A stretch of 28,712 bases of DNA, taken from the NCBI RefSeq assembly GCF_000720115.1, contig NZ_JOIR01000058.1:1-28712 (forward strand), given 5' to 3'. Position 1 is the first letter of the stretch; every line of letters starts with the position of its first letter. Shown one piece after another: positions 7,148 through 28,064 of the stretch. This DNA comes from Streptomyces sp. NRRL F-2580. GTDB taxonomy: Bacteria > Actinomycetota > Actinomycetes > Streptomycetales > Streptomycetaceae. Below the pieces are notes generated by a model. That model had not been told where the DNA came from and did no database searches. It saw only the letters and a list, made by a program, of their open reading frames with translations. Made by a program: the position numbers and the translations under genes.

Positions 7148-9073
7148 TCAGACCTGGATCTGCTGGATGTCGGCCACCGTGCTGGTGAACCCGTTGGTCG
7201 AGATGATCCTCAGCTGGACCTGCTGGCCCGGGCGGAACTGGCTGTGGTCGACCTGGATGACCGGGTCCTTGAGACCGACGCCAATCGTCTGCCAGGTGAC
7301 GCCGTCGTCGGTGCTGACCTGTGCGGCGAAGGTCTGGCCGGGCTCCGGCGCCTTGTCGAAGTCCAGTGCCAGCCCGAACGCCCCGTTGTCGGCCCCGGCG
7401 TGCCGGGCGGTGCGCAGGGCCGGGGGTGCGCCGGCGGCGCGGAAGGCGTCCACGACCTGCCCACCGACGACCAGCTCGATCGCCGCCGGGCTGGGTCCGA
7501 CCGGCACCACGGCGTCGACCAGGCCGGTACGGTCGGCTCCCGGGGCCAGCTCGGACGCCAGCTTGACCGGGACCGGGACCTCGCGGGGCGCCCCGCCGTC
7601 CGCCTGCTTGATCCGCAGGACCACTGGGGTCTCCCCGTTCGGGCCGGGTTCGCCGGAGACGGCGGGCTGGGCGGCCAGCGGTGACACTGGGTTGACGAAG
7701 CGGATGCCGCCCTCACGCCGGGTGAGGTTCACCGTGCCGACGACGCTGACGAGCTGCTCGGCCTCCGCGAGCGCGCCGCCCGCCCGGGCGATCACCCCCG
7801 CCTCCGGAGCAGCCGCGCGGGTGACCGACAGTTGCGGGAACCGTTCGTCGGGGCGGCCGCCGGTCGACGCGGCGGGCCCCGCGGACCCGGCGACAGGGAG
7901 CGGTGCCGGGGCACCCTGGGGCAGCGGGGCCGGGGTGGCTGTCGGGCCCTCGGGTACCGGGGCACCAGCCGTGAGCGCGTTCTCGGCTACCAGGCGCTGA
8001 CGGATGGCCTCGTAGGTGTAGCTGCTGATCCACTGCTGGTTGCAGTAGGTCATCACGTCGTGCCACTGCACCCCGGGTCTCACCCTCATCGGCAGGTTCA
8101 GTGCGAGGTCGCCGACGTCGAATCCGACGAAGGTGTCCGGTGAGTCGGCGAGCTGCCCGTTCTGGAAGGGGTAGTTCTGCAGGTCGTCCGGGGACTCCCC
8201 GCAGAACCCGGGGTGCCGACGCCCGAAGGTGTGGCCGAGTTCGTGCCCCCCGTACCAGTCGCTGTAGGCGCCGTCGAAGTCCCAGCCCCAGTGGGCCGCT
8301 CCGCACGGTGACGACGCGACGGTCGCCGGGTCCGGCGCTGCGGGGATGCCGGAGGAGCAGCCACGCATGAAGAACCCGCCGTCGGCCGCCTGGCCGAGGT
8401 AGTGAGTGCGCGGGTCCCCGCCGGCGCTGATGTCCAGGGCGCGGATGGCGGCGAGCTGCGCGTTGGTGTCCTCGCACGTGAACGGGGGCGGGGCGACCAC
8501 ATCGATGACGGTACGTGAGCTGATGACGTCGGGCACCGGGTAGGCGCGCCTGAGCCAGCTGACCAGGGCGGCGTGGTCGAGCTCCCGGGGGGTGTAGGTG
8601 GTCGGCGGGTTCCCCTGCTGGTAGCGCAGTCCGAAAACGCGGATCCGCAGCGGCGGGGCGGGATGGAACCACACGGTCGGGCCGACAGCCGCCCCGCTGA
8701 TCGGGATGGCGGCCCCGGTAAGGACTTCGCTGAGGGTCAGCCCGCTCACCTGGAGCGGCCCCTCCGCTGTGAGGGTGGACGGCAGGAGGAAGTTGAGGCT
8801 GAGGCGCTCATCGGCGCGGCGGGTGGCGAGGTCCTGGTTTTCGGTTGGGTCGAGGGAGACGACGTTGAGAGAGGTGAGGGTGAGAGGGGGAACCGTGGGT
8901 GACCGGCGCAGCTTCACGGCGCCGCGAGCGGAGAGGATCTCACCTGTGCTGCCGCTCACGTATACGCGGATGACGGTGACCTTGTCGGCGATCAGGGTGA
9001 CGCTGTGCTTGAGGTCCTGGACCGACTGGGTGACCTCGGTGGCCTCCCATACGGCTTGCGTCTGTGCTGGCAT
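7148..9073 (-). CDS. Metzincin-type zinc metalloprotease (paralogue 1)
   Basis: A 641-aa protein from ATG 9073 with AAGGGGG upstream. The catalytic site is H277-E-L-G-H281-T-F-G-R-R-H287, the HExxHxxGxxH zinc motif of metzincins, followed by P-G-F-C. The Met-turn is D-V-M341-T-Y-C. The N-terminal ~180 residues form a beta-rich domain beginning A-T-E-V-T-Q-S-V-Q-D. After a proline/alanine-rich linker (about 385-440), the C-terminal region is again beta-rich and ends with two immunoglobulin-like stretches (Q-T-F-A-A-Q-V-S-T-D-D-G-V-T-W-Q). No signal peptide or lipobox is visible, so it is probably cytoplasmic unless exported by an unusual route. It is a tandem paralogue of the gene at 9417. Lying in the same unit as LodA and LodB, it may process a component of the oxidase system, as the unrelated protease QhpE does for quinohemoprotein amine dehydrogenase; this is inference. 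Confidence 0.85.
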   Translation of the reverse strand: MPAQTQAVWEATEVTQSVQDLKHSVTLIADKVTVIRVYVSGSTGEILSARGAVKLRRSPTVPPLTLTSLNVVSLDPTENQDLATRRADERLSLNFLLPSTLTAEGPLQVSGLTLSEVLTGAAIPISGAAVGPTVWFHPAPPLRIRVFGLRYQQGNPPTTYTPRELDHAALVSWLRRAYPVPDVISSRTVIDVVAPPPFTCEDTNAQLAAIRALDISAGGDPRTHYLGQAADGGFFMRGCSSGIPAAPDPATVASSPCGAAHWGWDFDGAYSDWYGGHELGHTFGRRHPGFCGESPDDLQNYPFQNGQLADSPDTFVGFDVGDLALNLPMRVRPGVQWHDVMTYCNQQWISSYTYEAIRQRLVAENALTAGAPVPEGPTATPAPLPQGAPAPLPVAGSAGPAASTGGRPDERFPQLSVTRAAAPEAGVIARAGGALAEAEQLVSVVGTVNLTRREGGIRFVNPVSPLAAQPAVSGEPGPNGETPVVLRIKQADGGAPREVPVPVKLASELAPGADRTGLVDAVVPVGPSPAAIELVVGGQVVDAFRAAGAPPALRTARHAGADNGAFGLALDFDKAPEPGQTFAAQVSTDDGVTWQTIGVGLKDPVIQVDHSQFRPGQQVQLRIISTNGFTSTVADIQQIQV

Positions 9074-9416: not shown

Positions 9417-11366
9417 TCACACCTGGAAGCTCTCGACGTCGGACGTCGAGCTGGTGAAGCCGTTGGTCGTGATGATCCGCAGCTGGACGCGCTGGCCCGG
9501 CTGGAACTGGCCGCGGTCGATCTTGATCGCCGGGTCCTTGAGACCGACGCCGATCGTCTGCCAGGTGATGCCGTCGTCGGTGCTGACCTGTGCGGCGAAG
9601 GTCTGGCCCGGTTCCGGCACCTGGCTGCCGAAGTCCAGGGTCAGTGCGAACGCCCCGTCTGCCGCACCCGCGTGACGGGCGGAGAGCAGGGGCGTGGGCG
9701 TGCCGCCGGGCCGGAAGGTGTCCACTACCTGCCCGCCGATGAGCAGTTCGATCGACGCCGGGCTGGGCCCCACCGGGACGACCGCGTCGACCAGGCCGGT
9801 GCGCTCCTCCCCCGGGTTCGGGTCGGATCCCAGCTTGACGGTGACCGGGAAGTCCCGCGCCGGGGCGCCGTCGGTCTGCTGGACCCGCAGCACCACCGGG
9901 GCCTCGCCGTTCGGCCCGGCGCCGGCGGCCCCGGCACCCGGTGTGGCCTGGGCTGGCTGGGTGACCGCGGCGGAGACCGGGTTGACGAAGCGGATGCCGC
10001 CCGCACGCCGGGTGAGGTTCACCGTGCCGACGACGCTGACGAGCCGCTCGGTGTCCGGCTCCGGCCCGCCCTCCTCGCGCCTCATCGCCCTGATGGCCTG
10101 CGCCGGGGCCACCGCGGTGACGGACAGTTTCGGGAACCGCTCGTCGGGGCGGCCGCCGGACGACCTGGTGGTGACGCTGAGTGCCTCACCAGCTGGGTGG
10201 CCGCCTGCCGCAGCCGGGGCCTGCGGGGCCGGGGCCGGCTCGGCGACCTCGGCACCGTCCGTCACCATGGCCTCCTCGGCCAGCAGGCGCTGGCGGATGC
10301 CCTCGTAGGTGTAGCTGCTCAGCCACTGGCGGTTGCAGTACGTCATGACGTCGTGCCATACCACGCCCGCCATGGCGGTCATCGGCACGCCCAGGCTCGG
10401 GTCGCCCACGTCGAGCCCGGCGAAGGTGCCCGCCCCGTCCGCAAGCTGCCCGTTCGGGAACGGGTACCCCAGCAGGTCGTCCGGGGACTCCCCGCAGAAC
10501 CCGGGGTGCCGACGGCCGAAGGTGTGGCCGAGTTCGTGCCCCCCGTACCAGTCGCTGTAGGCGCCGTCGAAGTCCCAGCCCCAGTCGGCCGCTCCGCACG
10601 GTGACGACGCGACGGTCGCCGGGTCCGGCGCCGCGGGGACGCCGGAGGAGCACCCGCGCATGAAGAACCCGCCGTCGGCCGCCTGGCCGAGGTAGTGAGT
10701 GCGCGGGTCCCCGCCGGCGCTGATGTCCAGGGCGCGGATGGCGGCGAGCTGGGCGTTGGTGTCGTTGCACGTGAAGGGCACGTCGGCCGTCACGTCGATG
10801 ACGGTGTGTGAACTGATGACCTCGGCCACCGGGTAGGCGCGCTTGAGCCAGCTGATCAGCGCGGTGTAGTCGAGGTCCCTGGGGGTGTGGGTGCCCGGCA
10901 CGTCCCCGCCCTCGTACCGCAGCCCGAAGACCTTCACCCGTAGTGGCGGTGAGTTGTGGAACCAGACGGTCGGGCCGTTGGCGGGCGCGCTGACCCGGAC
11001 GGGGTTCCCGCTCACCGTGTCGGTGAGGGTGAGCGACCTCACGCTGAGCGCCCCCTCGGTCGTCAGCGCGGGCGGCAGCAGGAAGTTGAGGCTCAGCGTG
11101 ATGTCGCCACGGCGGGTGGCCAGGTCCTGGGGCACGCTGGGATTGACCGAGACGGTGTTCGCCGACAGGACGGTGAAACCGGGATCCGTGGGGGACCTGA
11201 CCAGCTTGAGGGCGCCGCTCACCGCGGCGGCGGGGCCGAACGTGCCGCTCACGTAGGCGCGGATCACGGTGGCCTTTCCGGCGATCAGGGTGACGCTGTG
11301 CTGGAGGTCCTGCACCGCCTGGGTGATCTCGGTCGCGTCCAGTACAGCGGTTGTCGGAGTAGTCAT
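9417..11366 (-). CDS. Metzincin-type zinc metalloprotease (paralogue 2)
   Basis: A 649-aa protein from ATG 11366 with CCAAGGGG upstream, 32 bases after the lodB stop. It is colinear with the downstream paralogue without gaps through the catalytic core, with H277-E-L-G-H281 and H287 at the same residue numbers and the Met-turn D-V-M-T-Y-C. Its N-terminus has the matching A-T-E-I-T-Q-A-V-Q-D-L-Q-H-S-V-T-L-I-A-G start. A Pro/Ala/Gly-rich linker leads to the C-terminal beta domains. No signal peptide is visible. The coding DNA around the catalytic site is almost identical between the two genes while other parts differ much more. It is the first metalloprotease after lodB, so it may be the ancestral copy. 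Substrate unknown; a maturation protease is the favoured guess. Confidence 0.86.
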   Translation of the reverse strand: MTTPTTAVLDATEITQAVQDLQHSVTLIAGKATVIRAYVSGTFGPAAAVSGALKLVRSPTDPGFTVLSANTVSVNPSVPQDLATRRGDITLSLNFLLPPALTTEGALSVRSLTLTDTVSGNPVRVSAPANGPTVWFHNSPPLRVKVFGLRYEGGDVPGTHTPRDLDYTALISWLKRAYPVAEVISSHTVIDVTADVPFTCNDTNAQLAAIRALDISAGGDPRTHYLGQAADGGFFMRGCSSGVPAAPDPATVASSPCGAADWGWDFDGAYSDWYGGHELGHTFGRRHPGFCGESPDDLLGYPFPNGQLADGAGTFAGLDVGDPSLGVPMTAMAGVVWHDVMTYCNRQWLSSYTYEGIRQRLLAEEAMVTDGAEVAEPAPAPQAPAAAGGHPAGEALSVTTRSSGGRPDERFPKLSVTAVAPAQAIRAMRREEGGPEPDTERLVSVVGTVNLTRRAGGIRFVNPVSAAVTQPAQATPGAGAAGAGPNGEAPVVLRVQQTDGAPARDFPVTVKLGSDPNPGEERTGLVDAVVPVGPSPASIELLIGGQVVDTFRPGGTPTPLLSARHAGAADGAFALTLDFGSQVPEPGQTFAAQVSTDDGITWQTIGVGLKDPAIKIDRGQFQPGQRVQLRIITTNGFTSSTSDVESFQV

Positions 11367-11398
11367 GGTTGACCCCTTGGACGAGCGTTCCGGTTCTT

Positions 11399-12568
11399 TC
11401 AGGCTATGACCGGCGAGGGCTGCCCGCCCGTCCTGCGGCGCTGCCAGAAAGGGCTCAGGGGCCAACGCTGCTCCTGTCCGTACGCGTACGCATGATTGTC
11501 GCGGTAGGCCGTCGCGACCCTCTCCAGGAACGCTGTGTAGACGGCGAGGGCGGTGGTCGTCCCGCCCTCGTCGGCCAGGCAGTCGGCGACGGCGCGTCCG
11601 GCGCGGGCGCCGGTGTGCAGCGCGGTGAGGATGCCCTGTGAGGAGAGCGGGTCGAAGGCGATCGCGGCGTCCCCGGCCGCCATCCAGCCGGCCGCGGCCG
11701 CCGGGGTGAGCCGCAGGCCGTGGGCGGGTGCCCAGCGCGGTACGGGAGTGGCAGCGGGGTCGTGGTCGGCCAGGCGCCGCCGTAGGTGGCTGGTGCGGGT
11801 GAGCGCGTGCCAGAATCCGTGCGGGGTCTTCAGGGACGGCTCGGCGAGGTCGACGTCGGTCAGGTGGGCGACCAGACGTCCGGCCGGGATCCGGGTGGTG
11901 TACCACCAGCCGTACGGCGCCGCCTCGACCAGGGTACGGGCCTCGGCGGCCGCCGGGTGGTCCCGACCCGCGGCATCCCGGTCGGGGAACACTGCGTACG
12001 CGGCAACCAGCCGGTCCTGCCGCCGGCGCCGGCCGTGGCGGCGGCCGATGACGCAGCGTCGGCCGGTGGCGTCGATCACCCAGCGGGCCGGCAGTGCTGT
12101 CAGGGTGCCGGCGGCGTGCTCACGGACGATCAGACGCCCAGCTTCCCGGCGCAGCGCCGTCGCCCGCAGCGGCTCGGCACCGGCCGCGACGGCGGCCTCG
12201 CGCAAGAAGGCGTCGAAGCGGAGCCGGTCGAGGTGCCAGCCGTGCCCGTACGGGTCGAACAGGTGGCTGCGGCCGTGCAGCGAGGCCGAGCCCCAGGCGG
12301 CGTAGGTGCCGGTGGACACGGGGTGACCGGCGGCCAGGAAGCCGTCCAGCAGCCCGAGGTCGCGTAGCAGCGGGCGGGCGACGGGCGGCAGGAACTCGCC
12401 GATCTTGAAAGCCGGCCCGGCCGTCTCCCCCCGCCCGGCCCCGCCGTCCTCAAGCAGCAGCACGCGGTGGCCGCTGCGCGCCAGGACGAGCGCCGCGACG
12501 GCACCCGCCGGGCCTCCGCCTGCGACGACGGCGGCGGGCGGCCCGGGCGGGCGCAGGCGGGTGTTCAC
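11399..12568 (-). CDS. lodB: LodB-like FAD-dependent flavoprotein, CTQ maturation
   Basis: A 389-aa flavoprotein of the LodB/halogenase-like monooxygenase type. LodB is required to convert the tryptophan of LodA into the quinone cofactor. The start is the GTG at 12568, overlapping the upstream LodA stop by four bases (GTGA), so translation is coupled. Residues 13-40 contain the dinucleotide-binding fold V-V-A-G-G-G-P-A-G with E40 at the strand end. A W-V-I-D-A-T-G-R segment is at 163-170. The second FAD motif G-D-A-A-I-A-F-D-P-L-S-S-Q-G is at 299-312. The K-I-G-E-F-L-P-P segment near residue 55 is typical of LodB-like proteins. The C-terminus W-P-L-S-P-F-W-Q-R-R is partly copied at 9102-9207. 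Assignment rests on fold motifs plus the LodA neighbour. Confidence 0.85.
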   Translation of the reverse strand: MNTRLRPPGPPAAVVAGGGPAGAVAALVLARSGHRVLLLEDGGAGRGETAGPAFKIGEFLPPVARPLLRDLGLLDGFLAAGHPVSTGTYAAWGSASLHGRSHLFDPYGHGWHLDRLRFDAFLREAAVAAGAEPLRATALRREAGRLIVREHAAGTLTALPARWVIDATGRRCVIGRRHGRRRRQDRLVAAYAVFPDRDAAGRDHPAAAEARTLVEAAPYGWWYTTRIPAGRLVAHLTDVDLAEPSLKTPHGFWHALTRTSHLRRRLADHDPAATPVPRWAPAHGLRLTPAAAAGWMAAGDAAIAFDPLSSQGILTALHTGARAGRAVADCLADEGGTTTALAVYTAFLERVATAYRDNHAYAYGQEQRWPLSPFWQRRRTGGQPSPVIA

Positions 12569-15500
12569 CGGTGCGTCCGGAAGCGCTTGACCTTGTCGAT
12601 GAAGCCCACCGAGACCTCCTCGTCCGGGACGTCCGCCATGGTGACCGCGGTGGCCATGGCGGACGCGCCGAGGACCGGGTCGGCTGCGCGGTCCACGTGC
12701 ACGGTGACCAGGTTTCGCCCCGCCGGCGGGGCGGGCTCGCGCGGGAAGCTCACCTCGGACTCCACCAGGAGCTCCGCCGGGAACCGGGGGTCGTCCGTCG
12801 GCCCCGGTCGGCGCTCGACCACGCCGAGCTTGCCGAAGTCCTGCACCATCGCGTTGATGGCGTCGAGGTAGGGGGCGGGCAGCCAGCGCAGCCAGGTCTT
12901 CCTTGTCCCGAAGGCGGCCAGCCGCTCGCTCATCGGGCGGGAGGTGTCCAGGACGACCTCGTAGTCCTCCTCGGCGAGCACGTGGTTGGGCACCCGGGCC
13001 GGCCAGAAGGTCGGCAGGTACGGGTCGTAGGGACCCAGTCCGAGGGTGGCGCTGTACTCGTAGCCCGAGCGGCAGCTCGCGGTGTCGGTCTGCCACGGCA
13101 CGGCCATCCAGCGGGTCAGGTCGCCCGGGCCCTGGGCGTGGAGCGGGCCGTCGAGGGAGAGCGCGATGTCCGGGGTGAGCGCCTGGCCGTAGAAGGGCGG
13201 CAGGGGTGCGGCCGGGTCGCGGTGGCGCACCCGGAAGGGGCTGCTGTACAGCGTGGTGTGACGCATCGGCCAGGTCAGCTCGCAGCCGGGGTGGAAGGCG
13301 TCGGCGAGGCAGAACGACAGGGCCGCCCGGTCGAGGGTCTCGGGCCGCTGGGCGAACGGGACGTCGTCGATCGTGGCGGGCGGCTTCTGCGCCGGGTCGT
13401 AGTCGTTGACGAAGTCCCCGCGGGCCCAGCGCTGCAGGAGGCGGTACTGCAGCGGTGAAAGCGTCATGTGCTGGCGCACCGACTGAGGAGGCAGGTTCAT
13501 CGCGTCGCCGTAGACCGCCGGCCACGGCACGGGGGACACGCCGTCGCGGTTGTAGTCGCGCACGGAGAGCCAGACCTGGCGGCGCAGCTCCCTCTGGACG
13601 GGCGAGGGGTCGGCGAGGACGGCGAGCCGGGCCGGGCCGAGGAGGTCCTCACGCCCGCCGTGGCCGAACTGGACGGCCAGGCCCTTGTTGACCCACTGCA
13701 GGCCGGACAGCCGGCGCAGCACGGGCAGCACGTCGCGGGTGAACGACACCTGCTGCGGTTCGGGGAGGAGGCCCGCCTCGAAGAAGGAGCCGCGCACCAG
13801 GTCGTACATGGTGCGCACCGAGATCAGTTCGGGCGCGTAGTTGGGCGGCGCGGTGACCACCCAGCCCGGGTCGACGGGGATCTTCCGCCCGTCGATGCTG
13901 ACCTCGGCGGTGACCGGGCCGTCGGATACGTCGTCGTACCAGCCGTCGTTGTTGGCGAAGGTGTCGGCGGGGGCATCGGCGGCCGAGGCCGAGGCGCCGT
14001 GGCCGCCGAGGAAGATCAGCCGGCCGCTGTCGTCGGTGCGCACCTCGCCGAGGTAGACCTGTCTGTCCATGAAGGTGCCGGTGTCGAAGCGGTACTCGGG
14101 CTTGCCGGAGCGGTTGCGCCCCCGCACCGAGCGGGGTCCGGGGTTGATGGTCAGCAGGCCTCGCTGGTCGGCCGGGATCTTGGCGTTGCGCAGGTTGCTG
14201 GTGTCGGCCCGGCCCGCCTCGGGGATGTCCAGGGCGATCTGGAACTGGTACCAGGCGGCCTTGGAGTTGGCGACGTGCACCGTCCAGCGCAGGTCGGCGT
14301 TGTCGGCGGTCAGTTCAGCGACCGGCTCACCGGCGGCGTTGTAGCCGTAGACCCGGAAGCGGACGGCTTGGCGTTTGAGGGCGCCGGTGACGTCCTTGTA
14401 GCTCCCGGTGGGCGGCAGGTCCGGGTGGTCGACCTCGGGGGCGAGGATGAAGTCGTCCATCATGCTGTCGCCGACCCGGGCCACGCCGATCGCGGGGTGG
14501 ATGGCGGCTCGAACGATCCGGGTGTCGCGGCCGGACGGCGGGGTGATCTGTGGGCGGGCCGGGCCGGGTTCGGCGGCCGGGATGCCGTTGACGTCGCGGC
14601 GCTGCTCGGCCGAGGCCTGGTAGACGGTCCTGCGCACCTCGGCGATGCTGCCGACGGGGCGGTGCTCGGCGAGGCTGTGCCACGGGTTGTAGGCGAGGTT
14701 CTCGCCGTAGGCCGCCTGGCCGCGGGAGGTGACGTCCTGCTGCTGGAGGGTCAGCCGGGCGACCTTGACGGGGGTGCTCGCGGTCTCCTCCCAGCGCACG
14801 GTGGCCTTGTCCAGGGGCATGGCCTCCGGGTCGGTGCGGAACTGGAGCAGCAGGTCGAAGGCGGCCGGTCCGGCGGCGAGCCGGCGGGCGAGGTCGGTGC
14901 CCAGGTAGGTCGGGTCCTCGTCGGGCGGCGTCGCCGCCGGGTCGCCGGATGCGCAACCGGCGGGCACCAGCTTGTACTTGACGAAGCGCTCGGGCCCGAA
15001 CGCGTACGGCAGCACGCCCCAGTAGGTGGTGGTCAGGACGCTCTCCTCGAACACGGCCATCGCGTCGAGGATCTCCTTGGTCACCGGGTGGTCGGCCAGG
15101 TACCGGTCGTAATTCCCTTCGACGACACCGGCCTTGGTGAACTCACACATGTCCTGGGCGGTGTCCACGAAGAAGACGTCGTGGTTCTGCATCAGCAGGT
15201 CCTGGGTGCCGGCTTCGGTGTCGCCCTCCAACAGCTTCGGCCCGGGCACCCCGAACAGCTTGATGCCGATGCCGAGGGTGGTCATCAGGTCGGGGCTGCC
15301 GGGCACGGTGTCGCTGGAGAAGCGCACCCAGGCGGTCAGGCCGCCGGGCTGCTCCTGGGCGCTGCGCAGGAAGCCGACGCGTAGCTCGGCCGGCAGGTCG
15401 TCGGCGACGGTGAGCACGCCGCGGGCGACGCCGTGCGGCTTGAGGAAGACCGGCCGCTTGACCGGGTCCTGGCCCCGGGCCATCCGGACGCCCTGGGTCA

Positions 15501-15603
15501 TGTCCACGAACATCTGCTTCAGCGCGACGGCGGCGTCCTCGGCGCAGTGCGGCAGCGGAGGAGCACCTTCGGCGTCGTCGAAGGGTTCGAGCTTCCCGAT
15601 CAT
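12565..15603 (-). CDS. lodA: Catalase-like domain fused to LodA/GoxA-type CTQ oxidase
   Basis: A 1012-aa fusion from ATG 15603 (GGGAG seven bases upstream). Residues 1 to ~350 are a catalase-related heme domain of the small y4iL/SrpA-like type: K-P-H57-G-V-A-R-G supplies the distal histidine, W-V-R-F-S follows, and R-R-T-V-Y328 is a candidate proximal heme tyrosine. Residues ~362-1012 are a complete LodA/GoxA-like oxidase, beginning I-H-P-A-I-G-V-A-R-V-G-D-S. Candidate cofactor residues are D840 and C844 in P-W-Q-T-D-T-A-S-C, and W904 or W907 in T-W-L-R-W-L. C774 in H-P-G-C-E-L-T-W sits 70 before C844, matching LodA Cys448 relative to Cys516. Such enzymes oxidise an amino acid amine, releasing ammonia and H2O2, which the fused catalase could remove. 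The histidine found two residues after the quinone Trp in LodA is absent, so substrate or chemistry may differ. Confidence 0.85.
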   Translation of the reverse strand: MIGKLEPFDDAEGAPPLPHCAEDAAVALKQMFVDMTQGVRMARGQDPVKRPVFLKPHGVARGVLTVADDLPAELRVGFLRSAQEQPGGLTAWVRFSSDTVPGSPDLMTTLGIGIKLFGVPGPKLLEGDTEAGTQDLLMQNHDVFFVDTAQDMCEFTKAGVVEGNYDRYLADHPVTKEILDAMAVFEESVLTTTYWGVLPYAFGPERFVKYKLVPAGCASGDPAATPPDEDPTYLGTDLARRLAAGPAAFDLLLQFRTDPEAMPLDKATVRWEETASTPVKVARLTLQQQDVTSRGQAAYGENLAYNPWHSLAEHRPVGSIAEVRRTVYQASAEQRRDVNGIPAAEPGPARPQITPPSGRDTRIVRAAIHPAIGVARVGDSMMDDFILAPEVDHPDLPPTGSYKDVTGALKRQAVRFRVYGYNAAGEPVAELTADNADLRWTVHVANSKAAWYQFQIALDIPEAGRADTSNLRNAKIPADQRGLLTINPGPRSVRGRNRSGKPEYRFDTGTFMDRQVYLGEVRTDDSGRLIFLGGHGASASAADAPADTFANNDGWYDDVSDGPVTAEVSIDGRKIPVDPGWVVTAPPNYAPELISVRTMYDLVRGSFFEAGLLPEPQQVSFTRDVLPVLRRLSGLQWVNKGLAVQFGHGGREDLLGPARLAVLADPSPVQRELRRQVWLSVRDYNRDGVSPVPWPAVYGDAMNLPPQSVRQHMTLSPLQYRLLQRWARGDFVNDYDPAQKPPATIDDVPFAQRPETLDRAALSFCLADAFHPGCELTWPMRHTTLYSSPFRVRHRDPAAPLPPFYGQALTPDIALSLDGPLHAQGPGDLTRWMAVPWQTDTASCRSGYEYSATLGLGPYDPYLPTFWPARVPNHVLAEEDYEVVLDTSRPMSERLAAFGTRKTWLRWLPAPYLDAINAMVQDFGKLGVVERRPGPTDDPRFPAELLVESEVSFPREPAPPAGRNLVTVHVDRAADPVLGASAMATAVTMADVPDEEVSVGFIDKVKRFRTHR

Positions 15604-22367: not shown

Positions 22368-23366
22368 TCAGCCGACCGCGACGGCGTTCCGGGCGCCGTC
22401 GAGTTCGTCGGACCAGGCGGGTCCGGCGAAGGCGCTCCCGTACAACCGGGCGCAGCTGCGCTGGTGTTCGACGTAGGCCGCGCGCAGCCGGGCGGCGTAG
22501 TGGGCGCACAGCGCACGGGGCGCCGCGGTCCCCCGCACAGCCGCGTCGATGACGGCGGCGGCGAGGATGCCCGTACGCAGGGCCTGCGCCGTTCCGGTGC
22601 CGCTGAGGGGGTCGTAGCGGATGGCTCCGGCCCCCACCAGCAGCCGGCCCGGGGCGTCCCCGGCGGGTGCCGTCGCGGGGGCCGGGTGCAGCAGCGGGGC
22701 GGCCGGGACGGCGGCGGCGGACCGGGGCGGGTGGCGCAGGAGCGCCCCGAGACCGGTCTCGGCGGCCAGCCGGGCGAGCAGGGCGACGGGGTCCCCGGCC
22801 GGACCGGGCACCATGGCCTGTACGAGGGCGGCGCCGCGCCCCAGCGGGGTGAGCAGCGCCCAGCCCGCTTCGGCGGTGCCGAGGACGGCGGTGCGCTCGT
22901 CGGCACCGGGGCGCAGCGGGGCCGTCCCGGCCAGCAACCGCCGCCGCCCGGCGGCCCGTTCGGGCACCGCACGGGCGGTCACCACCCAGCCGGCCGGTCC
23001 CTCCGGCGGATCCGTGCTCCCCTCGTCCATGCCGTGCTCCGCCAGCCGCTCCCGCATGCGGACGGCCACCTCGGCTCCGTCCACCACCCGGCTGGCCTGC
23101 GCGAACCGGGTCGGCGGCCCGTCGCCCCAGCGTACCTGACGGTGCGTCACCTCCCAGGTCCCGTCGAGGAGTCCCGGACCCCACAGGGAGTCCAGCAGCT
23201 CCAGGGCCGGCCCGGCGAGCAGCAGCGGCCGAGCCCCCGTGGCGCCCGCCCCCGCCGCGCCCGGCCCGGGCGGCGGCAGCCGGACCCGGTGCCCGCGCCC
23301 GGCCAGTAGCCGGGCGCAGGTCAGCTCCGCCAGTCCGGCCCCGCCGATCTCGACGGGGCGGCTCAT
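22368..23366 (-). CDS. LodB/QhpG-like flavoprotein of the split-CTQ operon
   Basis: A 332-aa FAD-dependent monooxygenase-like protein, presumed to hydroxylate the cofactor tryptophan as LodB and QhpG do for their partners. ATG 23366 overlaps the preceding stop by four bases (ATGA). The N-terminal nucleotide-binding loop is I-G-G-A-G-L-A-E, a variant of G-x-G-x-x-G in which the last glycine is not in the usual place. The C-terminal FAD segment reads V-G-A-G-A-I-R-Y-D-P-L-S-G-T-G-T-A-Q-A-L, equivalent to G-D-A-A-I-A-F-D-P-L-S-S-Q-G in the LodB at 11399, but with alanine in place of the ribityl-binding aspartate. FAD binding may be altered. It is the last gene of the operon; no terminator is visible before the integrase debris. 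Confidence 0.78.
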   Translation of the reverse strand: MSRPVEIGGAGLAELTCARLLAGRGHRVRLPPPGPGAAGAGATGARPLLLAGPALELLDSLWGPGLLDGTWEVTHRQVRWGDGPPTRFAQASRVVDGAEVAVRMRERLAEHGMDEGSTDPPEGPAGWVVTARAVPERAAGRRRLLAGTAPLRPGADERTAVLGTAEAGWALLTPLGRGAALVQAMVPGPAGDPVALLARLAAETGLGALLRHPPRSAAAVPAAPLLHPAPATAPAGDAPGRLLVGAGAIRYDPLSGTGTAQALRTGILAAAVIDAAVRGTAAPRALCAHYAARLRAAYVEHQRSCARLYGSAFAGPAWSDELDGARNAVAVG

Positions 23367-25249
23367 CCCTGAAGGTCCAGCACGTCCAGCAGAGCCGCGG
23401 TTTCGAACTGCTGACTAATCGTCATGTCCCTCAGGTCCCCGTCGAGTTCCCGAATGGCGGCCAGGGTCTCGATCGCCGCGATGGCCGCTTCCCTGGTGGC
23501 CTGACCGTCGGCGAGCTCGGGCGGCAGCTCGCCCGCGCCCGGCGCGAAGGCCGAGGGCAGGGTGAAGCGGGGCGCGATGCCGCGGGTGGCGAGGAGGTGG
23601 TTGATCTCGTGGAGGTTCTCCATCGTGACCCGGGCCTGGCCGATCAGCAGACCACCGGCCTGGTCGCCGAGTGCGAACGTGGCTTGCAGGGTGCCGAGCA
23701 GTGCCGCGTAGTACCGGTCGCTGAGGTCGAGCAGCGTCCGGCCCAGCTCGTCCTGCGCGCCCGGCCGCCGCAGGGGTCGCAGGTACACGAGGGGATCGAG
23801 GCCCACCAAGTGCTCCTTCACCGCGGTGAACCGACGGAAGTGCTCCTCGCCCTCGTCGATGACGAGCTTGATCAGGTGGGCCAGCCTGTCGGCCTCGGGG
23901 AACACGTCCGGCTGCTTGATGATGCTCCGGTGCAGCTGGACGTACATGCCGTCGAGGCCGGTGCCCACCTGTTGGCTGGGGGCCTCCACGTCGATGAACC
24001 ACTGCAGTTGCGCGGGTGTCAGCGGGCGGAGCTCGAAGGGGTGGACCGTGTCGCGCACGATCTCCGCCGCCCGCCCGACGACGGGCTTCTCGCCCAGGGT
24101 GCCGAGGGCCTCGTTCACCCAGCGCAGGTGCCGCATCTCGTCGACCGCGACCTCGAACACCTCGAAGGCCGCGGCGTGGATCCGCCGCATCAGCCGACTC
24201 GCCGAATCCGGCAGCTCCCTGGGCGCGTTGAGCGAGTAGTGCGCGTACAGGTACTCCACGCTCAGTGCGTGCTCGACGGTGGCCAGTGACTTGAGCCTGC
24301 TGATCACGGTCGCCCGGTCGAGGAGCGGGATGTCGGGCGGCACCGGGTTGCCGATGCTGTCGTCCTCGCGGTCGTTGAGCACCACGGGCAGCACCTGCCA
24401 GTCGGAGATTAGCCGGGGGTAGCCGAGCTCCAGCCGCCTGCGCGGGCTGCCGAGGTCCAGTGCGTCCGTGTCGAGGTCCGGGACCGGTGTGCGGTCCGCA
24501 CGCAGGAAGTTCATCTGCGGGATGCTCTCGTCGGCGTTGCCGGCGACGTCGGGTTTCGAGGCGGCCCAGTAGAAGCAGCCGCAGTCACGAAAGTCGTACT
24601 GCCAGGGGGCGCACAGGCTGCGGGTGAGGTCTCCCGGCCGGTACACCTCCGGGTCGATAACCCCGTTCTCGTCCAGGTACCGGGCCCGGTCCGAGACCAG
24701 CACGGCCAGCTGGAACCGGCCGTCGGGGGCACGGCGGACGAAGCTCTCACCGCTCATGCGCAGGGCGTTGAGGTTGCCGACCGCGGCGGCTCCGAGCGTG
24801 GCGACGGTTGTCTGGCGCCCCAGCAGGAGTACGGCGATCCGGCCCGGCAGCAGATCGTGCACCTGCCGCCAGACATCCAGGCCGTCGCGTTCACGGCAGT
24901 CGACCGGCTCGACCTGGGCGTCGGTCTGGTCCACCCGGGTCCGGCCGCACACGGCCCCGATGAAGACCTGGTTGTCGCCCGTCAGGTCCGCCGTGGTCAG
25001 CCTGTGGGCGGCGGCCACCCCGCCGGTCACCTCCAGCGCCCGGGAGCCGTTGTAGCGGTGGAAGTCGAAGAGCATCCCGGGGAAGAAGGCCTTGTCGAGG
25101 TTGCGCTGGTCGAACTCGAGCCCCGGGAAGCAGTTGTCGACCCCGCTCTCCGGGCGGGTGTTGGAGGGGTTGCCGCGTACGACGTGGTCGGCCCGCGCGG
25201 TGAGGTTGCGCGGGAGGATCTTCCCAGTGGGAGTCGGCAGGTCGGGCAT
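23363..25249 (-). CDS. CTQ-core protein fused to a ferritin-like domain
   Basis: A 628-aa protein; ATG 25249 has AAGGAG seven bases upstream and lies 20 bases after the radical SAM stop. Residues ~35-300 resemble the catalytic half of LodA: N-C40-F-P-G-L-E-F-D matches H-P-G-C-E-L-T-W, then G-D-L-T-R and P-W-Q-Y-D219-F-R-D-C223 match G-D-L-T-R and P-W-Q-T-D-T-A-S-C of the fusion at 12565. W284 (I-S-D-W-Q-V-L-P) is 61 residues after C223, the expected spacing for a cysteine tryptophylquinone. Residues ~315-560 form a ferritin-like bundle: T-V-E-H, D-E-M-R-H, D-E-G-E-E-H supply possible di-iron ligands, resembling the VioB-type ferritin-like domain. The LodA N-terminal region is absent and is supplied by the gene at 26682. 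I infer the quinone-bearing subunit of a two-part oxidase. Confidence 0.78.
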   Translation of the reverse strand: MPDLPTPTGKILPRNLTARADHVVRGNPSNTRPESGVDNCFPGLEFDQRNLDKAFFPGMLFDFHRYNGSRALEVTGGVAAAHRLTTADLTGDNQVFIGAVCGRTRVDQTDAQVEPVDCRERDGLDVWRQVHDLLPGRIAVLLLGRQTTVATLGAAAVGNLNALRMSGESFVRRAPDGRFQLAVLVSDRARYLDENGVIDPEVYRPGDLTRSLCAPWQYDFRDCGCFYWAASKPDVAGNADESIPQMNFLRADRTPVPDLDTDALDLGSPRRRLELGYPRLISDWQVLPVVLNDREDDSIGNPVPPDIPLLDRATVISRLKSLATVEHALSVEYLYAHYSLNAPRELPDSASRLMRRIHAAAFEVFEVAVDEMRHLRWVNEALGTLGEKPVVGRAAEIVRDTVHPFELRPLTPAQLQWFIDVEAPSQQVGTGLDGMYVQLHRSIIKQPDVFPEADRLAHLIKLVIDEGEEHFRRFTAVKEHLVGLDPLVYLRPLRRPGAQDELGRTLLDLSDRYYAALLGTLQATFALGDQAGGLLIGQARVTMENLHEINHLLATRGIAPRFTLPSAFAPGAGELPPELADGQATREAAIAAIETLAAIRELDGDLRDMTISQQFETAALLDVLDLQG

Positions 25250-25269
25250 GGACGGGCTCCTTCGGGCCT

Positions 25270-26685
25270 TCAGACGGTGCTGGCACTGCTCGTGAGCGGG
25301 GCCGCCGCGGACCGCTGCTCGAAGAACTCGGGCGCGGCCTGGCCGAGTTCGACGTAGGCGCGCAGGCAGAAGGACAGCCAGCCGCGGATGTAGTCGCAGC
25401 CGGGCCGGCCCCGTCGGCTGACCTCGTGGTAGCAGCCGCCGCCGCACAGGTAGCGGGCCCAGCAGGACCGGCAGGGCTCCTGCCGGTCCACGTGGCGTTC
25501 GGCCAGGTGCCGTTGCCGGGCGGCGGTGTCGGGTCCGGCGGCCAGTGAGCCCATGGCGAAGGCGGGGTCGTCGACCAGCCGGTGGCAGGCGTAGAGGCCC
25601 CCTTCCGCGGAGGCGCTGAGGTAGCCCGCGCCGGCCCCGCAGGGGTAGGGGCGGTGGGCGCCCCGGTGCAGCTGCTCCATGGCGGTCTGGAAGTTGCCGA
25701 ACGGGTAGGCGCGGCCGGCCGACAGCTCCGCAAGGGCCCGTTCGCCGCAGGCGGTCATCTGCTCGAGGAAGCCCGCGAAGGCCTCGGTGGTGATCTCGTA
25801 CGCGGGGTCCGGGGCGCTGACCACCGCACCGAACCCGACCTCGTCGAAGCCGAGCGCGATGCCGTGCTCCAGGACGTCCAGGAGACGGCCGGTGTACGGG
25901 GTGACGCTGACGCGCGCGGAGAGGTGGCGGGGGCGGCCGTGGCGGGCGAGCGTGTCGAGCCCGGCCCGTAGCCGGTCGTATGCGCTGGCTCCGCCGGGCG
26001 CCCTGCGCAGGGCGTCGTGGCCGGTCCGGTCGCCGTCCAGGCTGACCGTGACGGTGAACGGGTGCTCCGCGAACAGTGCCGCGTCGTCGGGCCGTACGGT
26101 CGTCAGGTTGGTGGTGAGCGCGAAGCGGACCCGGTGCCCGGTGGTGGCCCCCGCCCGGACGGCGTACCGGACCACCTCGTGCACCAGGTCGCGGGCGAGT
26201 AGCGGTTCGCCGCCCATGAAGCCCACGACGACGTCTGAGCCGGGCGCCGCCTCGGCCAGCAGCCGGTCCACCGCCGCGTACGCGGTGGCCCGAGGCATCG
26301 CCCGGGCGCTTCCCCCGAACCGGCCCTCGTCGGCGTAGCAGTGACCACAGCTCAGATTGCAGGCCTGCATCACGTTGAGGGAGATCGAGGACAGCGGAGG
26401 CGGTGCGAGGGGAGTGCCGTCGATCCGCGGTGCCCCCCAGAGCGGGAGGTCCAGCGTGCGCCCCAGCTCGTCGAGGGAGCCCTCCGAGGCGGAGAGCCAC
26501 TCCTCCAGCCGGACCGCCGTCGCCTCGGGCAGGTCGTACAGACGGCTGCCGTCGGCGACGAAGAGATGGGCCCCGTGCGCACTCCGGAAGGCCCGCACCT
26601 GCGCTCCGGGCCCGGCCGGCAGCGGGCTCGTGGCTTGTGCCGGGACGTCCGGGGGCCGCCGCCCGATCTGCAGGAGTACGGTCAC
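25270..26685 (-). CDS. Radical SAM/SPASM protein, QhpD-like maturase
   Basis: A 471-aa protein from GTG 26685, overlapping the upstream stop by four bases (GTGA). The radical SAM cluster is C109-N-L-S-C113-G-H-C116, followed by G-F-M-G-G-E-P and the later S-L-D-G motif. The C-terminal SPASM/twitch region has C349, C367 (Y-A-C-H-R-L-V-D-D), C405-x2-C408, C414-G-G-G-C418, C430 and C440, enough for two auxiliary Fe-S clusters. The first ~90 residues form a small domain that may bind a partner peptide. SPASM enzymes of this shape install thioether or C-C crosslinks in polypeptides; QhpD makes Cys-to-Asp/Glu thioethers in the CTQ subunit of quinohemoprotein amine dehydrogenase. Lying between the two halves of a LodA-like oxidase, it probably modifies one of them. 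Confidence 0.85.
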   Translation of the reverse strand: MTVLLQIGRRPPDVPAQATSPLPAGPGAQVRAFRSAHGAHLFVADGSRLYDLPEATAVRLEEWLSASEGSLDELGRTLDLPLWGAPRIDGTPLAPPPLSSISLNVMQACNLSCGHCYADEGRFGGSARAMPRATAYAAVDRLLAEAAPGSDVVVGFMGGEPLLARDLVHEVVRYAVRAGATTGHRVRFALTTNLTTVRPDDAALFAEHPFTVTVSLDGDRTGHDALRRAPGGASAYDRLRAGLDTLARHGRPRHLSARVSVTPYTGRLLDVLEHGIALGFDEVGFGAVVSAPDPAYEITTEAFAGFLEQMTACGERALAELSAGRAYPFGNFQTAMEQLHRGAHRPYPCGAGAGYLSASAEGGLYACHRLVDDPAFAMGSLAAGPDTAARQRHLAERHVDRQEPCRSCWARYLCGGGCYHEVSRRGRPGCDYIRGWLSFCLRAYVELGQAAPEFFEQRSAAAPLTSSASTV

Positions 26686-28064
26686 GTGCCCGGCTCCGTC
26701 CTGTCACGCAGGCCCTGGGCCCAGGCGGTCAGCAGGTCGTACTGCCGTCGGGTCAGGTGCAGCGGTCCAGCGTCGGCACCGCGCATCCCGATCGGCATGC
26801 GGCGGTCGGTGTAGCTGGGCGGCAGGTCCTCGGCCGGTGGCCGTACCACGCGGTCGAGCAGATCGGGCTGCTCACGCACCATGTCTTCCAGAGCCTCGAG
26901 GGCGACGAAGCGGCGGTGGCGCCGACGACCGCGGTCGGTGAGCGCGAGGAGAACGCCGGTCAGCGGTTCGGGAACCGTCCACGCGACCCCTTCGTAGGTG
27001 TCGAGGACGCGCTGGTTCTGCACGTCCACGTTCATGTTGCCCATCGTTTCGAGGACCCGTTCGAAGAGATCACGGATCTCCAGCGCGGTCTGTCCCTCGT
27101 CGGCGATGTAGGAGGGGTCGCTCACTTCGGCGCGCTTGACCCGGTCGGCGAGTCCGTCCGCGAGGGAGACGAAGGGCCTGCGGTCCGGTGCGAAGTCGGG
27201 CGGGCTGACCACGATGCGGGCGGTGACGGTGAGACCTCCCGGCAGGGTCACGGCGACCGTGCCGTCGCAGACGTCGTCGACCATGCCCAGGCTGGCCTGG
27301 ATCTGCCGCTCCGCGCCCGCGAACAGGCCGGGGGGCGAGGTCCGTTCATCGTCGCTGATGTCACTGAGCCTCAACCGGCACCACGGCGCGGCCGGATTGA
27401 GGATGAGCCGCTCCTGCGGGAGCTGGTACCCGGTGTTCGCGGCGAGCTCGGCCAGGTTCGTCGGCCCGTACACGAACCCTTTCCCCGGGGTGAACCGCAG
27501 CCGGAGTTCGGGGAGTTCGGCGTTCGGCGCGGGCACCTGGACCGAGCCGAGCGGGAGGGACTTGCCGGCCGGGACGAGCGGGTTGGCGGTGTCCTGCGGA
27601 GAGTGCCCGGCGAGCGGGTGCCGCTGGTGGTCGTCGCCACGGACCTCGGCCCGGGCCTCGACGCGGTCGTCCTGCTGCTGGGTGATGTGGTGGGACTTGA
27701 GGTTGGCGACGGAGACCTGCCAGCGCACGTCGCCGAGGCCCAGCCCGAAGTCGGCGAGCACGTCGGCGGTGAGGACCCCCGTGCGCTGCTCGCCGTCGGC
27801 GGTGGTCCAGCTGCCGTGCACCTCGAAGAACGGGCACACCGGCCGCCAGCCGTCCGCGTCCTTGAACCGGACCTTCTGCGGCATCCGCGTGGTCAGGGTG
27901 CCGTCGGCGGCGAGGTCGAGGCTCTCCACCGGCTCCACGGTGGTCTTGCCCGTACCGCGCGGGGTCAGGTCGCTGGGTCCGTAGCGGTAGTTGTCGCACG
28001 GCATCGGCGAGGAACCCAACCGGGCGATGGCGAGGGGTGGTTGAAGCCAGATACGGTCGATCAC
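26682..28064 (-). CDS. Stand-alone LodA-like N-terminal domain protein
   Basis: A 460-aa protein; GTG 28064 is chosen because AGGAGG stands five bases upstream. It resembles the N-terminal two thirds of LodA without the quinone core: I-W-L-Q-P-P-L-A-I-A-R-L-G-S-S matches I-H-P-A-I-G-V-A-R-V-G-D-S of the fusion at 12565, D-V-R-W-Q-V-S-V-A-N matches D-L-R-W-T-V-H-V-A-N, and I-V-V-S-P-P-D-F-A-P matches V-V-T-A-P-P-N-Y-A-P. It ends L-T-R-R-Q-Y-D-L-L-T-A-W-A-Q-G, corresponding to L-S-P-L-Q-Y-R-L-L-Q-R-W-A-R-G, which in the fusion lies shortly before the CTQ residues. It contains no P-W-Q-x-D-x3-C motif. I infer the structural subunit that partners the quinone-core protein at 23363. It is first in the operon. 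Confidence 0.75.
   Translation of the reverse strand: MIDRIWLQPPLAIARLGSSPMPCDNYRYGPSDLTPRGTGKTTVEPVESLDLAADGTLTTRMPQKVRFKDADGWRPVCPFFEVHGSWTTADGEQRTGVLTADVLADFGLGLGDVRWQVSVANLKSHHITQQQDDRVEARAEVRGDDHQRHPLAGHSPQDTANPLVPAGKSLPLGSVQVPAPNAELPELRLRFTPGKGFVYGPTNLAELAANTGYQLPQERLILNPAAPWCRLRLSDISDDERTSPPGLFAGAERQIQASLGMVDDVCDGTVAVTLPGGLTVTARIVVSPPDFAPDRRPFVSLADGLADRVKRAEVSDPSYIADEGQTALEIRDLFERVLETMGNMNVDVQNQRVLDTYEGVAWTVPEPLTGVLLALTDRGRRRHRRFVALEALEDMVREQPDLLDRVVRPPAEDLPPSYTDRRMPIGMRGADAGPLHLTRRQYDLLTAWAQGLRDRTEPGT

Follow-up and report, generated by a model that had tools for sequence, protein, structure and literature searches.

Four genes, here called A to D, lie in that order on the minus strand between positions 28064 and 22368 of a 28,712-nucleotide stretch of DNA (the window) from Streptomyces sp. 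NRRL F-2580, which has a genome of 8.4 Mb. By homology, their products resemble the N-terminal part of a LodA-type oxidase, a radical S-adenosylmethionine (SAM) enzyme related to QhpD, a protein that joins the quinone core of LodA to a ferritin-like domain, and a flavoprotein (Table 1). The four open reading frames (ORFs) lie where an earlier note on this DNA had placed them, as do the 4-base overlaps of A with B (26682-26685) and of C with D (23363-23366); B and C are separated by a gap of 20 bases. The central picture of that note, an oxidase of the cysteine tryptophylquinone (CTQ) type split into two subunits with a radical SAM maturase between them, holds in our analysis, and we correct it as regards the flavoprotein, the quinone tryptophan and the idea that two routes of cofactor formation are combined.

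Table 1. Genes and sequence features of the A-B-C-D module in the window
Feature	Position	Strand	Description
Gene A	28064-26682	minus	460 amino acids (aa); GTG start preceded by AGGAGG; N-terminal subunit, spanning the LodA/GoxA N-terminus through the ...QYxLLxxWAxG... helix
Gene B	26685-25270	minus	471 aa; radical SAM/SPASM maturase
CNLSCGHC	26338..26361	minus	CxxxCxxC radical SAM cluster motif, B residues 109-116
Gene C	25249-23363	minus	628 aa; quinone core (residues ~1-300) fused to ferritin-like domain (~310-563)
N-terminal stretch of C	25109..25222	minus	C residues 10-47, KILPRNLTARAD...GNP...SGVDNCFPGLEFD; conserved; includes C40 and E45
Quinone/staple motif	24548..24613	minus	C residues 213-234, C213-x5-D219-x3-C223-x-C225-x2-W228-x5-D234
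Ferritin-like domain	23561..24322	minus	C residues 310-563; invariant E326, E371, H374, E422, E466, H470
Gene D	23366-22368	minus	332 aa; QhpG-like flavoprotein

Comparison with known sequences shows that A and the core of C together correspond to a LodA-type chain cut just before the quinone region. In profile-profile alignments the two proteins were colinear on LodA, with E values of 6.4e-18 (A) and 2.2e-6 (C), and the predicted fold of A matched GoxA/LodA, in agreement with the structural likeness that the earlier note had foreseen for this subunit. Together with the recurrence of the arrangement described below, these results uphold a LodA-type chain divided in two around a QhpD-like gene. 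A LodA_C piece was detected in C at residues 201-235 (Pfam E 4.8e-5, 23.5 bits, cut-off 25), and C reached 25.6 bits, above the cut-off, against LodA_C in the genome search. Direct sequence searches of the PDB returned no match for A and one 33-residue LodA match for C (E 0.64), which made profile comparison necessary. LodA and GoxA are single polypeptides, and in 29 loci their counterpart is encoded by two genes with the radical SAM gene between them; we infer that A and C assemble into one unit.

Taken alone, A scored weakly against curated models (Pfam LodA_N E 0.052, 14.0 bits, cut-off 26.3; NCBIfam GoxA E 0.003), and the poor scores of both A and C would suit a broken LodA gene that merely adjoins an unrelated radical SAM cluster for a ribosomally synthesized and post-translationally modified peptide. 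The genomic distribution makes such a chance arrangement very improbable, and as an explanation of the whole set of loci it already fails. A scan of genome contigs for the C family gave 39 loci, 29 of which carried A-B-C-D in this order and on one strand, with coupling, as expected from the earlier note if the genes belong together. These 29 loci came from six phyla (Actinomycetota, Cyanobacteriota, Planctomycetota, Pseudomonadota, and one metagenome-assembled genome each of Nitrospira and Anaerolineae), some being near-copies (three Nostoc, L024-L026). The other ten comprised two compact forms (L040, L041), a copy without B and the C core (L037), a locus at a contig end (L039) and six weak matches to the ferritin part (L042-L047). 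When two plasmids were added to the 29, A, B and C clustered in all 31 A-B-C-D loci and D in 30, and no further gene family recurred in at least six of them, antisense frames aside. Within 197 sampled genomes of Streptomycetales, three held the C family, the window's own included; the closest named locus was that of Streptomyces nymphaeiformis, with C 98% identical.

Plasmids gave the same association. Among 72,556 plasmids, the 19 records with a match to C were exactly the 19 best for the L040 relative of B, each pair within ~320 bases, and ranks 20-30 of the B list were quinohemoprotein amine dehydrogenase (QHNDH) maturation proteins, one of them unannotated. Fifteen of the 19 records were read, the other four (H12, H16, H18, H19) being further plasmids of species already read. 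Conversely, tblastn detected a B-type gene in none of 18 regions from other genomes in which the only LodA was a single-chain one. The plasmid records include L087, L089, L092 and L120, and some of the plasmids are typed as conjugative. Because the module occurs on plasmids and the radical SAM tree of the module mixes phyla, its distribution suggests spread by gene transfer. Single-chain and split forms lie 5 kb apart in one genome (G449, locus L109).

The loci fell into three layouts. The first, A-B-C-D, is that of the window, in which C joins the quinone core to the ferritin-like domain. In the second, A is followed by a separate core of ~260-300 aa, then B and D; this layout occurs in Bradyrhizobium, Mycetohabitans, Rhizobium, Mesorhizobium, Novosphingobium and Embleya. 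Six of the nine loci read have a gene or piece like the ferritin-like gene of Mycetohabitans (L088) in front, and L087 and L118 have an annotated ferritin-like gene on the other strand. In the third layout LodA is unsplit and compact (~390 aa), and the genes for B and a flavoprotein come after it; it was found in Bradyrhizobium NAS96.2 (L040, flavoprotein QhpG-like) and Methylobacterium frigidaeris (L041, an ORF of the flavin adenine dinucleotide type). The split is inessential to radical SAM maturation, because the same cysteine signature and the same radical SAM type occur with these unsplit proteins.

We also observed individual departures from these layouts. At L037:1153-3905 (Streptomyces swartbergensis) A lacks its end, B is missing altogether and C lacks approximately its first 270 residues (the quinone core), with D and the ferritin-like part remaining; the gap is either a real deletion or a scaffolding gap. 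On a plasmid of Nostoc sp. UHCC 0302 (L092:4019-5653) the gene in the position of A is annotated as ferritin-like, and its product seemingly joins a ferritin-like N-terminus, matching the L088 ferritin gene, to a shortened A. In both loci of the third layout (L040:6996-11992 and L041:2543-8031) a secreted-looking protein with two CxxCH motifs, read by eye, is encoded in front. Its similarity to QhpA was limited to the surroundings of one heme motif (BLASTP E 0.029), and the compact LodA with this protein is possibly a second kind of quinohemoprotein.

By sequence comparison, QHNDH provides the closest counterparts of both maturases. B carries a Radical_SAM domain (PF04055, E 1.6e-15), and its closest curated family was QhpD (TIGR03906) with 271.3 bits against a cut-off of 453, followed by PapB with 219 bits; three relatives of B scored 301, 313.5 and 270.1 bits with the QhpD model, also under the curated cut-off. 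In a tree of 44 radical SAM enzymes, drawn without an outgroup, the LodA-associated enzymes and QhpD stood on opposite sides of a branch with 100/100 support, and the sisterhood of the two groups is not shown by it. The best model for D was QhpG (NF049967) with 39 bits (cut-off 240), ahead of GoxB (22) and LodB (12). QhpG was likewise the best model for the flavoprotein in all six radical-SAM-associated loci tested (window 39, L040 225, L088 274, L018 97, L092 98 and L119 56 bits), and the Mycetohabitans protein (L088) passed the cut-off, one of five D relatives. In ordinary LodA loci the best model was LodB or GoxB in six of six tested, one being decided by 2 bits between those two.

These assignments bear on how the cofactor would be made. 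QhpG is described as adding both oxygens to an unmodified tryptophan on a crosslinked substrate, in complex with QhpC and QhpD, and LodB/GoxB as acting on a mono-hydroxylated tryptophan (PMC7876137). D is a probable tryptophan-oxygenating maturase. The earlier note had called it LodB/QhpG-like, of which the QhpG half stands and the LodB half does not, and had proposed that the locus combines both biogenesis routes. That proposal is not sustained: because the flavoprotein matches QhpG best in 6/6 loci here versus 0/6 in ordinary LodA loci, the system appears to be QHNDH-type maturation acting on a LodA-type oxidase rather than a sum of two routes. Most naturally, the split oxidase would either have borrowed the maturation pair of QHNDH or share it through common descent.

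The residues around the predicted quinone point the same way. The CTQ residues of LodA are C516 and W581 (PMC4417212). In 3weu, C516 is the last residue of CPWQADFFNC, and W581 the second tryptophan of YYSYWWPPQSPW, within YYSYWWP. These residues align with C223 and W228 of C, a mapping that rests on motif and numbering, as the stretch containing W581 scores below 0 bits alone. Because of this alignment the quinone tryptophan of C is assigned, from sequence, to W228. Another residue, W284, had been assumed to fill this role because of its distance from C223 and its conservation in 30/30 sequences, and was dropped, since the WWP motif of LodA W581 aligns with W228. By position, D219 of C equals D512 of LodA and D678 of GoxA. 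LodA has 64 residues between its cysteine and tryptophan, whereas in C the spacing is C-x4-W.

This short loop resembles that of QhpC, the quinone subunit of QHNDH, in which three thioethers join cysteines to aspartate or glutamate (among them C41-D49), Cys37 and Trp43 are the CTQ precursor and Asp33 is the conserved aspartate (PMC7876137). The QhpC sequence that we used is identical to 1jju chain C. Its pattern, C27-x5-D33-x3-C37-x3-C41-x-W43-x5-D49, differs from the motif of C (Table 1) in its spacing near the second cysteine, by one or two residues. We take the remaining QhpC pairings to be C7-E16 and C27-D33; the former has only a doubtful counterpart in C, C40-E45. From these correspondences, the bonds predicted in C are C223-W228 for CTQ and the thioethers C213-D219 and C225-D234.

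All six motif positions were conserved in 30/30 sequences of the C-family alignment, in 120/120 among the best 120 of 626 C homologues and in 48/48 loci in which this radical SAM gene is adjacent. The 48 consist of 40 and 8; of the 40, 33 were matched by a regular expression and seven, with PWT or PWV, were read by eye. We note that one pattern of the C-family scan includes the cysteine at -10 from the quinone cysteine (C213), which biases the scan towards this residue. Seven loci (L022, L024, L025, L026, L028, L030, L038) do not fit the -10 pattern, must have been found through the ferritin pattern and still carry the signature. In single-chain LodA-like cores, by comparison, the -10 cysteine occurred in 0/21 (16 Ala, 5 Gly) and the +2 cysteine (C225) in 0/21; six further cores lacked both, and the LodA and GoxA crystal sequences have no -10 cysteine. 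These 27 single-chain sequences, 21 of them read with their surroundings (one from the window itself) and six without, came from Streptomycetales and the order of Methylobacterium. Because some single-chain cores already have an aspartate in WWPAxRPD (L104, L106, L115, L096), the aspartate acceptors look older, and it is the cysteines that accompany the radical SAM gene.

The compact LodA family provides a further comparison. At fixed offsets, an aspartate at +11 was present in 47/47 sequences with a cysteine at +2; among those without a cysteine between the CTQ cysteine and tryptophan, an aspartate stood at the matching place in 1/58, and all 58 keep the -10 cysteine. A bond between C225 and D234 would produce such a pairing. 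The counts refer to 120 listed of 334 proteins, with 17 misfitting one expression and 15 another. A subgroup within P0284-P0360 has cores like CS(P/T/S)WQxD(F/Y)xxCxGYW, in which the -10 cysteine is kept and the second cysteine and its aspartate are lost; 15 of 16 compact-family proteins read belong to it, and P0290 is incomplete. Searches for its genomic neighbourhood gave one weak partial match in six genomes and two partial plasmid matches, and none in sampled, overlapping cyanobacterial sets of 292 and 388, an empty answer that is uninformative.

Taken together, these results lead us to a reading to which we give a probability of roughly 0.7. A and C would assemble into an oxidase of the LodA fold that acts on amines or amino acids, the chain being interrupted immediately ahead of the quinone region, and Cys223 and Trp228 of C, as mapped by alignment, would become CTQ. 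By analogy with QhpC, B would first form Cys-to-Asp thioethers in C, most likely C213-D219 and C225-D234 and perhaps C40-E45, which would hold the short quinone loop in shape. B may be guided by the N-terminal stretch of C, a possible recognition region at residues 10-47 in which N15, L16, T17, A18, D21, G26, N27, G43, E45 and D47 were conserved in 30/30 sequences and C40 in 29/30. D would then oxygenate Trp228 so that the quinone forms, and the mature A-C enzyme would oxidise an amine to an imine with release of hydrogen peroxide. The ferritin-like domain probably handles the product, by coupling or oxidising the imine or by removing peroxide, which is the least certain step.

Several results weigh against this account. 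Foldseek TM-scores for A were low (<=0.33), and the quinone core of C was modelled without confidence, with a predicted local distance difference test score (pLDDT) below 50 at residues 208-236. The scores of B and D lie below the curated cut-offs given above, and two of the six flavoproteins counted, L018 and L092, are close Nostoc relatives. D was undetected by tblastn in 4/15 plasmid loci, in one of which, L119, the gene after C scores as QhpG. No relative of the QhpE protease or the QhpF exporter recurred among the 31 A-B-C-D loci. As for the staples, the aspartate already present in some single-chain LodA means that D234 alone is not diagnostic, the compact subgroup has a -10 cysteine without the second cysteine, and C40 is lost in some C-family members. 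Finally, a six-sequence QhpC profile found no match in the C family (E 0.59) and gave a weak, partly shifted match to single-chain LodA (E 2.8e-4).

B could instead make a different bond, either by linking Cys223 to Trp228 directly or by forming a carbon-carbon bond within C, with only the addition of oxygen left to D. SPASM maturases are chemically diverse, B also matches the PapB, SCIFF and nif11 maturase models, and the short C-x4-W spacing is reachable by a peptide-type maturase. We consider this unlikely, as B is closest to QhpD, the residues that accompany the radical SAM gene are cysteines in QhpC-like positions, and we know of no radical SAM enzyme that forms the Cys-Trp link in LodA/GoxA or QHNDH.

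The fusion of a ferritin-like domain to the quinone-core protein, proposed in the earlier note, is confirmed by a match of C residues 323-435 to PF12902 (E 1.5e-11, 45.1 bits, above the gathering cut-off of 22.3). Because its carboxylates and histidines (Table 1) are invariant in 30 sequences, the domain likely holds a metal site. VioB and RebD, of the same PF12902 family, act on imines made by amino-acid oxidases in the violacein and rebeccamycin pathways, and coupling of an imine or removal of peroxide by the domain of C may be envisaged, the least certain of our assignments; C is far from the VioB equivalog itself (14.8 bits, cut-off 1250). The ferritin-like domain can also be encoded by a separate gene (L087-L089).

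Within C, a confident fold match was obtained for the ferritin-like domain only: ferritins filled the Foldseek list for C and no LodA appeared in it, an absence that is uninformative at the low pLDDT of the quinone core. Named C homologues are, moreover, usually called 'ferritin-like domain-containing protein' in public records. One could therefore suppose that the ferritin-like domain is the enzyme and that the LodA core acts as a scaffold or senses peroxide, C not being a working quinone enzyme. We think it improbable, slightly more so than a different bond made by B: the CTQ positions do not vary among the best 120 of 626 homologues, and where the fused domain is absent the core is retained together with A, B and D (L087-L091).

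Compared with the two known CTQ systems, the module shares features with each. A and the C core match LodA/GoxA profiles, A matches their fold, and the CTQ cysteine and tryptophan and the nearby aspartate stand at matching places. Unlike Marinomonas LodA and Pseudoalteromonas GoxA, which are single chains served by LodB/GoxB, the module has two extra cysteines in the C core, a radical SAM gene, a fused ferritin-like domain and a flavoprotein closer to QhpG. With QHNDH (QhpABC, QhpD, QhpG) it shares QhpD-like and QhpG-like maturases, a nearly identical Cys/Asp/Trp spacing around CTQ and a gene order, seen in the Leisingera operon (L094), in which the quinone-subunit gene immediately follows that for the radical SAM enzyme. 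However, gene families for the heme-bearing subunits (alpha and beta), a protease or a transporter do not recur beside A-D, and the quinone chain resembles LodA and has several hundred residues, in contrast to the small gamma subunit of QHNDH. Systems of the VioB/RebD type share the PF12902 domain only, with C. In the fungus Gymnopus luxurians, PF12902 genes lie near LodA-type genes in a lodA/lodB cluster (PMC4417212, Figure 1 legend); there the genes are separate, the flavoprotein is lodB-like, and no radical SAM gene is mentioned.

The earlier note had treated QhpC as unrelated to LodA, which is no longer straightforward: QhpC has nearly the same Cys/Asp pattern as C, and the QhpC profile aligned with the compact LodA family (E 2.2e-6 with a score of 34, against at best 13.5 and E 0.012 in 30 column shuffles), although it found no match in the C family itself. 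The alignment pairs the LCQPMEADLYGC...WWPAQ stretch, and CTTSFDPGWE with the PGIE stretch of LodA, and the Pfam QhpC family matched the L041 compact LodA faintly at the same place (E 0.046). Common descent of QhpC and LodA is suggested, not shown, by these similarities. A tentative scenario, which we rate somewhat short of even odds, is that LodA/GoxA and QHNDH share an ancestral quinone module. The radical-SAM-stapled LodA types (split, split with a separate ferritin-like gene, and compact beside a two-heme gene) would have survived as intermediates, QhpC would represent a LodA core reduced to ~80 residues in which staples replace the lost fold, and in the window form the fused ferritin-like domain would give a bifunctional enzyme, able both to oxidise the amine and to act on the imine.

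The module is a real, conserved variant of CTQ oxidases, and it links two cofactor-building systems that have been treated as separate, which suggests that QhpD/QhpG-type maturation is apparently not confined to one dehydrogenase. Full-text literature searches returned no description of a LodA-type oxidase with a radical SAM maturase, most subscription papers being beyond their reach. Members of the family, found in streptomycetes, cyanobacteria, rhizobia and planctomycetes, are mostly named only 'ferritin-like', 'radical SAM' or 'hypothetical'. Predictions at residue level are now available for C213-D219, C225-D234 and C223-W228, and stapled and unstapled LodA cores offer a natural comparison.

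Other genes of LodA type and long ORFs were observed around the module. A second LodA/GoxA-like gene in the window (12565-15603, minus strand) encodes an ordinary single chain of 1012 aa with an N-terminal extension that matches 3e4w, and tblastn of the window detected no flavoprotein partner for it except gene D. Long ORFs at 9420-12083 and 7151-9073 (minus strand; 888 and 641 aa) matched neither Pfam nor NCBIfam under the thresholds applied. A third LodA-like gene of the same genome lies on another contig (C78, locus L096), with a divergent and only distantly similar radical SAM gene (62 bits) nearby.

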